Translations under genes and position numbers: made by a program | The notes under the pieces: model-generated | Database searches by the model: none | What the model saw: the letters and a program-made list of their open reading frames with translations, nothing else | Told to the model about the DNA's origin: nothing | Part shown: piece by piece, positions 387 to 8,065 of the stretch | How the letters are laid out: each line of letters begins with the position of its first letter | Numbering within the stretch: the first letter of the stretch is position 1 | Source: Deltaproteobacteria bacterium | GTDB taxonomy: Bacteria; SAR324; XYD2-FULL-50-16 | Direction: 5' to 3' | Length of the DNA: 49,973 bases | Assembly (NCBI GenBank): GCA_018645005.1 | Contig: JABGPJ010000074.1 | Location: 1-49,973 of the forward strand

Positions 387-1469
387 TTATGATAGCGGGA
401 CCATATCTGTCTTCTTGAACTGAAATAGGAATTTGCTGACGAAGCCTTTGAAAATCAGAAACAACAACACGAGAGTGGAAATATATGCGATGACGCCATG
501 GCTTTCCTCACCCCCGGAGCTGATCCAGTTCTGAATCGAAAGACCTGAGAAATCGTAGATAAAGTTGACCAGAACGCCAAACAAGAGGGAATTGATTAAA
601 ATAGAGATCAAATAGATGAGCGCTGTTTTTTTCCCAAGCAGTTTCGACACCACCGTCAGGGTGGCCATGTTGGTGGCGGGCCCTGCCAGCAGAAATACAA
701 GTGCGGCGCCTGGAGACAGTCCCTTCATCACCAGGGCAGCGGCAATGGGTGTTGAAGCGGTTGCGCAAACATATAAAGGCGTTGCCACGACCAGCATGAT
801 CAGCATAGACAGTATGCCATCACCCAGATAGGCCTCGATGAGTCCAGGAGAAAGGAAGACGCCGATTAAACCTGCCAGTAGAACGCCCAGCATCAACCAC
901 GATCCAATATCGTCCAGTAAATCGCCAAACGCGAATTTCATACCAGATCGAAATTTATCCATTTTTGAGAGCTTAAGATTTTCTCCTGTACCACAGGAGC
1001 CTTTGTTGCTTCAACAGGATACCGGGATGGGCTCAGGAGCTTCTTCAGAATCAAAGAAATGAACAAACAAGCCGGTTGTAATTGCTGTCACAAATGCCGT
1101 CAACGGCCTTAAAATGGTCATGACAGGATCAAGCAGTGCATAGGTAATCGCAATCGAGTCTACCCCTGTCTCCGGTGTCGAGATCATGAAGGATGAAACG
1201 GCGCCTTTACTTGCACCTTGCTCTTTCAGACCTGCAGCAGCAGGCAATACGCCGCAGCTGCATAGCGGTATGGGTATTCCGATCAGGGATGCCTTGATCA
1301 CACCTGAGATATTGCCCCTGCCCAGATGCTTCTTGATTAATCCGTCCGGGAGATAGGCTTTCAATAATCCGGAAATAAAAAAACCAAAAAGGACGTAGGC
1401 AGAAGAGTCCAGCAGAACCATCCAGGATGATTTGAGAATCTCAGCCCCAAGGGGTATGATTGAGTCCAT
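387..1469 (-). CDS. SO_0444/YraQ-type metal-efflux permease, probable selenoprotein (in-frame UGA)
   Basis: Polytopic permease of the COG0701 (DUF318) family, whose SO_0444 branch is linked to copper and zinc efflux across the inner membrane. The first half (1469-1014) carries PIPLCSCGVLPAA and STPETGVDS; the second half (962-390) carries the matching GPATNMATL motif. Each half has about four hydrophobic segments, as in the internally duplicated family. The halves lie in one frame separated only by a UGA at 1013-1011 and 16 sense codons, giving 360 residues, normal for the family. The context is Ser-Cys-UGA-Ser-Asn-Lys-Gly-Ser-Cys-Gly, where a Cys would make a Cys-rich central loop. A SECIS-like hairpin follows the UGA. 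I read the UGA as selenocysteine (inference). The alternative is a nonsense mutation or a split gene restarting at the ATG at 962. The upstream ArsR gene and operator-like site support metal-responsive expression. Confidence 0.72.
983..1013 (-). promoter_or_regulatory. Candidate bacterial SECIS element with UGA codon
   Basis: Reading the minus strand, UGA (1013-1011) is followed by 11 nt and then a perfect 7-bp stem, CUCCUGU/ACAGGAG (999-993 and 989-983), closed by the three-base loop GGU. The loop begins 19 nt after the UGA. A short Gly/Gly-Ugly-type apical loop carrying G and U at about this distance is what SelB recognises in known bacterial SECIS hairpins. A lower AAG/CUU helix (1003-1001 with 977-975) could extend the stem across an internal loop. 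Confidence 0.6.
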
Positions 1470-4942: not shown

Positions 4943-7900
4943 ATGAAATTTCCTTCCTTAAAAGGCCGTTCTGAGCGATTGCTTCCGGAACAATCCGATG
5001 AAGAAAAGATGGTTCTGCTTAAAATCGCAGCCCACCAGTTTCTCGGTCAAAAATGGTTGTATTTTAAGAAAATAAAAGGAACAGATCAATCCGGAAAACT
5101 CATCAAGGAAAAATCCCTGTTCGAGGAGATGAAAGCAACCCGGTCGGCCTTGAAATTTACCTCGAAAAATACCTTGCGACAGTATATTCTGGCTTTTCAG
5201 AACTGTATGAAGGAAATCAAAAGCTTTGCTGTCACAGATGAGGAATTTCCCGAATTACCAGACGATTCTGATGGCAAAGTTCTCAAATCTATGATCCCTG
5301 AGCTGGATGCGGTGATCATTGCCTGGACCCCTTTGAAATTTCTGCTACCTGCCAGACAAATCCGTGAAAAAGGACAGGCCTCCGAGAGGCACACAGAAGG
5401 TTTGATTGCCAAACTGTTCTTCAAAGTGGCCGGATTCTACGCGGTACCGGAAAATTGGGACAGCAGAAAACTGTCATTTTATCTGGACCGCATTGGCAAA
5501 GACAGCCCCTATCAAGATGTTGTTCAAAAGCTGGAGCCCTTGAAAAAGAATCTGCTTAAGTTCAGTGAAGAGTTCGAACAGATTAAATTCGGGCAGGCGG
5601 CTTTGTCCAAAGATACGACTTCAGATGCAGGCGCCTTTGATGATGCCATGGAAATTGAGAATTTTGATTCTCAAGTGCAAACTCTGTACTGGCATCGATT
5701 TATCTATAAAGCCATCGAGAGTTTTCTGCTGAAGTACTACCTGACCCTGGTCTCTTCCACCGCATCTATTCATGCTGTGCGCTACCTTTCAACCGTTTTT
5801 GAGCCAGCCCTGACCCATGCTATTGATATGTCAGTTCTGTTCGACGGTTCGTTTGATACGGATATCTCAAAAAAAAGGTTTAGAAAAGCCTTTGTGGAAC
5901 TTCAACAAAAACGAGTTGATCAAGAATCCACCAAAAAAATAAAGATGAGGCGGGGCGTATTTGAGGTTTACAATTATAATCTTCCCCTCATTACAAGACA
6001 CGGGGTTCCATATGAGATTAACAAAAACATAAAAAAAACATCATTCTGGTGGTTATTCGTCGAGAAAGCCATTCTGGGTAAAAACCGCACTGACCTCGCT
6101 ACAGAGTTGAATTATACCCCGCACAAGAAATTATCCCAGAGTATCGCCGATGCTGTGCAACAAACTGAAGATTTATCAAATGAGAAGATTAAACGAACGG
6201 CTGAACTGGCAGGGCTCAAAGAAGGCATTGAAGAACTGAATGACGAGATGATCGCTCTTGATAAAGCGTTTAGAGATGAAAATCCGGTGCAGAAAAAAGA
6301 GCAACTGCAGCAGAGAAACAACAATGTCGAAAAAGGTCTGCAGGAAACCGCAAACCTGCTCAAAAAGATGAAGGAAGAGGAAACCGGCTTGATCCAAACG
6401 GAAGAAAAGCTGGCGCAGGAAAGAGATCAATTGCTTGAGGAAGAAGGAACTCTGAAGAAAGCGGCAGTAGAGGTTCAAGCGACAATAACTCAATTAGAAG
6501 CTGAACTGAAGGAAGCTACCATTAAAAAGACTGCTCTTGAAACGGAAAGTGCACAAACCAAAAATGAAAACCAGGGAACAGGACCCGATCAGAAAAAAAG
6601 CGCTAATCAAAAGATTGAAGCCTTACTGGCTGATATTGAGAGAAAGAGTGAAAAACTACAGCAAGCACGGGCTAAGCTGAGTTCCGTCACCGAAAAGTTA
6701 ACAACAGTGGGAGCAAGAAGAACAAACGATATCCCGGAAAAGTTTGAGCAAACTCAAGCAAAACATACTGAGATATTAGAAAAAATCAACGAATTTGATC
6801 TTAAGGGGTTAGATCAAAAAAAGCAGAAAAAACAGATACAGGAAGAGCAGATCGCTCTTGAGGAAAGGGATATCCGCTACGCAGAGTCTAAAAAGAAGAT
6901 CGATTCTACTATAAAAAATTCAAGAAAAAATCTGGAAAAGGATGCCAAAACTATTGAGAATATTGTAAAAAAAATCGCTGACACTGAGGCCGCAAAAGCA
7001 GAACTACAAAAGAAGCAGCAGGCGGTGCTGGAAGAAACCAAACAGAAACTGGAAGCCTTGAACAGTGTGGAAACCCGCTCTGCTATATTGATACATATTT
7101 CAGCCTTACTGATTACCAGTTCCCAGAAACGAAAAGAGGCCTGGCAAAAGGTACTTGAGCGGTTCAAGCAGAGATTGATTTCTGATCAAAAACTGGCGCA
7201 GAGCCGTGTGGAAGAGATTAAAAAAGAGTCTCAGAAAAAACTGCGGGAAATGGGGAAGAAGGCTTCAAAACTGGAACGTTTAAAACAGGGTGCCGCTGTC
7301 GAAGATTTCAAAAAGGAGATGGAGATTTATCAGCAGAGTGTTGCTCAGAAAAACAGGCAGATTATTAAATTCGCAAAACAAGAAGCCGAACTTCAGAAAC
7401 AACGGATTACGCAGATGTTTCATAAAATATCAAAAGATAAAAAGAGGAATGATGCGCTTTCAGCACGTCATCTTTTTGAACTGATATGTCAAATGGATGA
7501 GGGAGAACAGTTTAAGAATGAATTTATGGACTATCTAATTCAAAGCACTGCCCAGAAATACCAACAGAAGCTGGAACCGCTTTACAGCAATATGTTTACT
7601 GTTTTCAATCCCACTCTACTCAAAAAAGTAAGTCTGGTTAAGGCTTTAAATAAATCTGGAGATGTCGATGGTGTTCGGTTGGTGCTCAGCGATGAAGAAC
7701 AAAAAGGATTTAACGGTATTGTCCAGGGGATAAAAAATAATTTAAGGAAACAGAAACCGGACATTTTCGACTGTCAAGCGAAAATCGCTAACATTATTGC
7801 AACCATTGACGGGCTGTTGAATATCAAGATTGACAACCCCAGCCTGCTGCTTGTCCTGGGGACGAATTTCTTCGCACCCAAAAACCCGAAAGCAGCCAAG

Positions 7901-8065
7901 CTGCACCCCGGGCTGATTAAAAGGATATTGGAACTCAACCATATCATGACACCAGTTGCGGAAAACAGCCTTATCCTGGAAGGAAAGGAAAATGAGAGAG
8001 ATCCTGTTAATCGGATTAACACCTCGTTATTAAGAAAACTGATCGCGGAGAATCAACCTGCTTGA
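4943..8065 (+). CDS. Large coiled-coil protein of unknown function
   Basis: A 1040-residue, highly charged protein that I cannot assign to a family. Residues 1 to about 390 are globular and mixed. From about 395 to 850 the sequence is an almost unbroken Lys/Glu/Gln-rich heptad-bearing coiled coil, interrupted near 685 by a hydrophobic stretch (AILIHISALLITSS). The last 180 residues are globular again, with aliphatic strands and an FFAPKNPKAAK stretch. There is no Walker A, signal peptide or membrane anchor, so it is not an SMC or kinase; a cytoplasmic scaffold or tether is possible (inference). No clear ribosome binding site precedes the ATG and a MITE ends 88 bp upstream. The next gene starts 33 bp downstream and has its own strong ribosome binding site, so the two may be cotranscribed. 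Confidence 0.8.
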   Translation: MKFPSLKGRSERLLPEQSDEEKMVLLKIAAHQFLGQKWLYFKKIKGTDQSGKLIKEKSLFEEMKATRSALKFTSKNTLRQYILAFQNCMKEIKSFAVTDEEFPELPDDSDGKVLKSMIPELDAVIIAWTPLKFLLPARQIREKGQASERHTEGLIAKLFFKVAGFYAVPENWDSRKLSFYLDRIGKDSPYQDVVQKLEPLKKNLLKFSEEFEQIKFGQAALSKDTTSDAGAFDDAMEIENFDSQVQTLYWHRFIYKAIESFLLKYYLTLVSSTASIHAVRYLSTVFEPALTHAIDMSVLFDGSFDTDISKKRFRKAFVELQQKRVDQESTKKIKMRRGVFEVYNYNLPLITRHGVPYEINKNIKKTSFWWLFVEKAILGKNRTDLATELNYTPHKKLSQSIADAVQQTEDLSNEKIKRTAELAGLKEGIEELNDEMIALDKAFRDENPVQKKEQLQQRNNNVEKGLQETANLLKKMKEEETGLIQTEEKLAQERDQLLEEEGTLKKAAVEVQATITQLEAELKEATIKKTALETESAQTKNENQGTGPDQKKSANQKIEALLADIERKSEKLQQARAKLSSVTEKLTTVGARRTNDIPEKFEQTQAKHTEILEKINEFDLKGLDQKKQKKQIQEEQIALEERDIRYAESKKKIDSTIKNSRKNLEKDAKTIENIVKKIADTEAAKAELQKKQQAVLEETKQKLEALNSVETRSAILIHISALLITSSQKRKEAWQKVLERFKQRLISDQKLAQSRVEEIKKESQKKLREMGKKASKLERLKQGAAVEDFKKEMEIYQQSVAQKNRQIIKFAKQEAELQKQRITQMFHKISKDKKRNDALSARHLFELICQMDEGEQFKNEFMDYLIQSTAQKYQQKLEPLYSNMFTVFNPTLLKKVSLVKALNKSGDVDGVRLVLSDEEQKGFNGIVQGIKNNLRKQKPDIFDCQAKIANIIATIDGLLNIKIDNPSLLLVLGTNFFAPKNPKAAKLHPGLIKRILELNHIMTPVAENSLILEGKENERDPVNRINTSLLRKLIAENQPA

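Follow-up and report, generated by a model that had tools for sequence, protein, structure and literature searches.

The window, our term for the whole 49,973-nucleotide stretch of SAR324 DNA that was analyzed, encodes a predicted heavy-metal efflux permease on its minus strand. The gene (1469-387) forms one frame of 360 amino acids when a single TGA is taken as a residue, while translation table 11 splits it into two ORFs of 152 (1469-1011) and 191 (962-387) amino acids. The TGA occupies 1013-1011 on the minus strand and corresponds to residue 153, in the context VSC-U-SNKGSCG. The joined protein scores 416.7 bits with NCBIfam NF033936 (SO_0444 family; cut-off 300) in a full-length match (residues 16-341, profile positions 2-349 of 351), and it matches Pfam ArsP_1 (PF03773; COG0701) as well. 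These scores confirm the proposal of an initial annotation that two COG0701 permease halves lie in one frame around a single UGA. Besides a score above the cut-off, the protein has the membrane CSC motif and the Cys-rich central loop that mark SO_0444 members. The intramembrane metal motif, CSCG at residues 70-73, is encoded at 1252-1263 (minus strand), and C70 and C72 are invariant in an alignment of 45 sequences.

Directly upstream on the same strand lies a gene for an ArsR/SmtB metalloregulator (1691-2059) that carries an ELCVCDL metal-site motif and matches NF033788 at 100.8 bits as well as HTH_5. An ArsR gene occupies this position in most relatives with enough flanking sequence, across many phyla. 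In Nitratiruptor, a Cys-type SO_0444 member located beside a winged-helix regulator shows some of the strongest induction of any gene under Cd(II) and Cu(II) (PMC10092412). From the family annotation and by analogy with this induction, the window protein is likely a soft-metal exporter of the SO_0444 type, with Cu, Zn, and Cd as the predicted substrates. Elsewhere in the window, at 4943-8065 on the plus strand, lies an ORF of 1,040 amino acids that is Glu/Lys-rich, looks coiled-coil-like by eye, and has no Pfam match.

An AlphaFold2 model of the window protein, built from 45 sequences (mean pLDDT 89, pTM 0.86), predicts a disordered linker at about residues 140-168 that connects two halves resembling each other. 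Residue 153 falls in the least certain part of this linker, with pLDDT below 50 at residues 151-162, and the CSC motif (70-72) and C235 are placed at helix breaks in the two halves. By low pLDDT and by the Cys/Sec counts of homologs, the linker codons extend over 966-1055 on the minus strand (residues ~139-168). Three Cys/Sec residues lie in this loop, C152, U153, and C159, and 87% of homologs have at least two. Positive charges cluster around residues 80-90, 160-180, and 276-284 and at the C-terminus, marking the cytoplasmic side, and negative charges at 110-118, 200-210, and 305-330 mark the outside. From this distribution, both linker and tail probably face the cytoplasm, which supports the placement of the loop proposed earlier. 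A sequence search of the PDB with the window protein found no relative up to E = 10, and Foldseek against the PDB returned nothing at E <= 0.001. The best Foldseek matches were elevator-type transporters (CNT, TRAP SiaQM, and Pho90) with TM scores of 0.3-0.45, below significance, so the modeled likeness to an elevator-type fold is suggestive only.

Is the UGA a stop, an error, or a codon? Among the genomes of the window's phylum, the gene scored above the cut-off in five, the window included, all of them from the window's bacterial family within SAR324. Each of the five has exactly one TGA inside the match, at the identical point of the loop (WIN, L016, L017, L020, and L100). The motifs around it are SCUSNKGSC, ASUSGKSCC, PTUGCDSSC, SCUSKSSSC, and PCUSSQSSC. 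When the whole alignment is counted, full-length family copies share 59-75% identity with the window protein, and pairwise identity in the loop is 5-14 of 27-29 residues (50% or less). The loop is thus little conserved while the UGA is invariant, so the UGA was retained as its surroundings changed. Family copies differ at 51-69% of third codon positions, which vary far more than first and second positions, equally upstream and downstream of the UGA. Conservation of first and second positions on both sides indicates that both halves are selected as protein in one frame.

These comparisons bear on the possibility that the gene is a pseudogene or that an assembly or sequencing error turned TGC or TGT into TGA. 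The window does come from a draft metagenome-assembled genome, and Cys is common in the loop. However, the same UGA recurs in four other independently assembled genomes of the family, and the first and second codon positions are equally conserved on both sides of it. Sequencing error is rejected by these independent genomes, unless one error were common to all five, and the chance that the UGA arose in any of these ways is close to negligible. The recurrence also answers the concern, raised in the initial annotation, that a sequencing correction might remove the UGA.

Might the UGA instead be a genuine stop, with the halves made as separate subunits and the second started at an internal ATG (window 962)? 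This ATG lies 17 codons past the UGA, and the SO_0444 family has a two-half architecture that would lend itself to such a split. Yet the ATG is not conserved, being GTG in L016 and absent at the matching place in L017, L020, and L100, and the window ATG lacks a ribosome-binding site at normal spacing. A conserved Met farther along (SGMKFAFG) occurs in unsplit Cys relatives too and is therefore no signature of a restart. Moreover, separate subunits would not demand UGA over UAA or UAG in 5/5 genomes, a frame free of indels, or a hairpin, and a relative with Cys in place of the UGA in an otherwise identical frame speaks against them. With the start unconserved and the Met shared with unsplit Cys relatives, we reject the split-gene reading as very unlikely.

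Bacterial selenoprotein genes are recognized by an in-frame UGA that is conserved as UGA or Cys. Here, UGA is found in 5/5 family genes and a Cys-rich loop in the other relatives, as had been expected if the UGA encodes selenocysteine (Sec). The earlier suggestion that the UGA sits exactly where a second Cys would complete a pair holds for the Cys-rich character of the loop; the strict position is too precise a claim, given that the loop is hypervariable and residue-level homology in it is unreliable. Taken together with the hairpin and the Sec machinery described below, this makes the UGA of the window gene very probably a selenocysteine codon.

Bacterial SECIS (bSECIS) elements are hairpins just downstream of the UGA, with an apical loop about 16-37 nt after it and a G in the first two loop positions. 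The window has such a hairpin, CTCCTGT-GGT-ACAGGAG, at 999-983 on the minus strand; its 7-bp stem starts 12 nt past the UGA, as first described, and its GGU apical loop lies 18 nt past it. In the five family sequences, the stem keeps the same register without gaps, and 91% of pair cells are standard. Two stem pairs show two-sided changes (C-G to U-A and C-G to G-C), a covariation signal drawn from five sequences only; slid-partner controls give 46-57% pairing and 0-1 two-sided pairs. The stem pair adjoining the loop is lost in three of the five. Single-sequence folding energies differ mildly from those of shuffled sequences (z = -1.8 to 0.1, with -1.8 for the window), and for L100 a different fold is slightly favored, so that the hairpin is not the minimum-energy structure. 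As single-sequence folding is weak, we place weight on register, covariation, and controls from Cys homologs.

For these controls, a fixed rule was used: a stem of at least 6 bp, a loop of 3-8 nt with G in the first two bases, and a distance of 14-37 nt from the codon to the apical loop. Its terms were chosen once the window hairpin had been seen, so the window is not independent evidence for it, while the other sites are. The rule is passed by 3.3% of the 2,232 TGA trinucleotides in the window. Among the 31 TGAs in long frames of the window interrupted only by TGA, the permease UGA alone passes, and no other candidate for UGA read-through in this set has a hairpin. All five family genes carry the loop hairpin, compared with 9/142 Cys-only homologs at the same loop (Fisher P about 4e-6). 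For all loop-Sec sites together, 9/12 pass against the same 9/142 (Fisher P about 1e-7).

Can the host decode such a codon? The window's genome assembly (3.28 Mb, 68% complete) contains SelB above the cut-off and a tRNA-Sec gene that exceeds the curated score and has the anticodon UCA. SelA and SelD were searched for in this 68% complete assembly and not found, yet tRNA-Sec (9/9), SelA (9/9), and SelD (9/9) are all present in the nine other family genomes. The sel gene check thus found tRNA-Sec and SelB, and the absence of selA and selD is most simply a gap in the assembly. In eight of the nine family-mates, SelD has an in-frame UGA (L130-L133 and other selD loci), and the SelD of this SAR324 family is therefore likely a selenoprotein itself. 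Of 16 other tested genomes with Sec-type SO_0444 members, 15 have tRNA-Sec; the exception is the genome of L051, which may be incomplete.

The frame would also be open if TGA were read as some other amino acid, through recoding of the whole genome or a suppressor tRNA, or if there were plain read-through. Against this, the genome has a genuine UCA tRNA-Sec and SelB, most genes of the window are ordinary table 11 frames, and the UGA has Cys residues around it and a SECIS-like hairpin downstream. We regard such decoding as extremely unlikely. Selenocysteine specified by a SelB-type hairpin, as originally put forward, is strongly supported by the conserved UGA, the covarying hairpin, and the Sec machinery of the lineage. 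We therefore read the window gene, with a probability of roughly 0.93, as a selenoprotein gene for an SO_0444-type exporter with Sec in a flexible cytoplasmic loop.

How does this protein relate to known selenoproteins? The initial annotation knew of none of this transporter type, a statement that no longer stands: a 2026 review (PMC13188914) lists the SO_0444 family Cu/Zn efflux transporter (NF033936) among selenoproteins. The entry comes from GenBank annotation, with one Sec, motif UxC, and reference WP_014809615.1, and the review links such transporters to metal and metalloid resistance, with roles untested. The listed and window proteins share the family and are both Sec-containing metal efflux permeases; they differ in that the listed form has a single Sec in UxC, whereas in the window the cytoplasmic loop carries C-U-x5-C. 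The window motif reads C-U-S-N-K-G-S-C, outside the UxC pattern, and its intramembrane CSCG is all Cys. The membrane USCG agrees with UxC, and so do the UGC of some tails and the UGC of the L017 loop. A literature search for WP_014809615 found it named only in PMC13188914, which does not show which UxC is meant; from the motif, the intramembrane USCG form is probably the known one.

Other known systems are similar in part. SaoE (NF040736) of the Sao system is a related ArsP_1 permease of a Sec-linked metal system, but the window protein scores 189.4 bits against its cut-off of 325 and so falls outside SaoE, though related to it. Selenoprotein forms of MerT and of ZntA-type ATPases (PMC9312934) are likewise metal transporters with a predicted Sec ligand, in UxxC for ZntA, but their folds are unrelated to that of the window permease. 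The methylarsenite permease ArsP shares the Pfam family (PF03773), while the window protein matches the SO_0444 subfamily with its predicted Cu/Zn/Cd-type substrate. In our literature search, the SO_0444 family was named only in PMC13188914 and PMC10092412, and no paper linked SAR324 with an SO_0444 gene; SAR324 is named in a table of PMC5029168. By this search, the loop position of Sec seems to be new, as does the swapping of selenium, more than once, into different Cys sites of one pump.

This swapping is apparent from 167 distinct SO_0444 sequences. Of these, 19/167 have UGA within the intramembrane PL-U-S-C-G, 12/167 (the window included) have it in the cytoplasmic Cys-rich loop, and about 20/167 have it in the C-terminal tail, within the motif C-x-G-x-T-U-[GS]-[CS]. 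The intramembrane TGA-Ser-Cys-Gly is carried by L024, L025, L036, L061, L142, L153, L187, L191, L192, L194, L197, L211, and L218. Here, a hairpin follows the UGA in 17/19 proteins, compared with 21/148 Cys counterparts. The tail motif is carried by L041, L042, L043, L047, L051, L058, L139, L148, L157, L178, L180, L189, L196, L198, L200, L202, and L208. The hairpin behind C-x-G-x-T-TGA-[GS]-[CS] sometimes extends beyond the final stop. Hairpins are found at 14/17 strictly motif-bearing tail sites and at 10/58 other downstream TGAs. By these motifs and hairpins, the tail is a probable third Sec position of SO_0444 transporters in Desulfobacterota, and the least secure of the three because a TGA there could be a true stop. 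Several proteins have two UGAs, in membrane and loop (L155) or in membrane and tail (L041, L042, L043, L051, and L174).

On a quick tree built without the loop, from which L100 was left out as too short and in which losses and regains are indistinguishable, the fewest changes are 8 for the membrane site, 5 for the loop, and 10 for the tail. The tree groups its four SAR324 proteins in a single clade (support 97) that adjoins Cys-type proteins of Desulfamplus, Desulfocicer, and Desulfogranum. In Desulfobacterota, the loop Sec appears separately in L050/L059, in L136/L137/L150/L151, and in L155. From the tree, we infer that each of the three Sec sites arose several times.

What would selenium do in such a pump? 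The single frame, the conserved UGA, the conserved and covarying hairpin, the Sec machinery of the lineage, and the operon partner are read directly from sequence; from them we infer the actual insertion of Sec, the substrate, and a hand-over role. Ribosomes would read the UGA as Sec by means of tRNA-Sec and SelB, with SelB recognizing the downstream hairpin, and the flexible cytoplasmic loop would then present Cys152, Sec153, and Cys159. As a ligand for Cu(I), Cd, Zn, Hg, or As(III), a selenolate would surpass a thiol in both strength and nucleophilicity. Together with Cys152 and Cys159, it may take up soft metal from the cytoplasm and deliver this to the CSC/C235 site within the membrane, where export would begin, and the adjacent ArsR/SmtB repressor probably controls expression. 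Given where the Sec sits, how rich in Cys the loop is across the family, and how selenium behaves chemically, this hand-over is the most likely role; a redox function, such as protecting or reducing the loop, is also possible. On balance, we favor a view of SO_0444 transporters as soft-metal relays of loop, tail, and CSC, in which selenium was repeatedly and independently substituted at each station, sometimes at two. The Sec positions would then trace the path of the metal, and the loop Sec of SAR324 and the C-terminal Sec of sulfate reducers would be undescribed forms.

Redox enzymes make up most of the selenoproteins studied so far. In the permeases described here, Sec is likely a metal ligand in a membrane exporter, at several Cys positions of one family. 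Among related species, some have the Cys version and others the Sec version, which provides natural pairs for testing the effect of selenium on soft-metal capture and transport. As standard gene calling splits such genes, metal-resistance genes of SAR324 and of sulfate reducers are likely mis-annotated.
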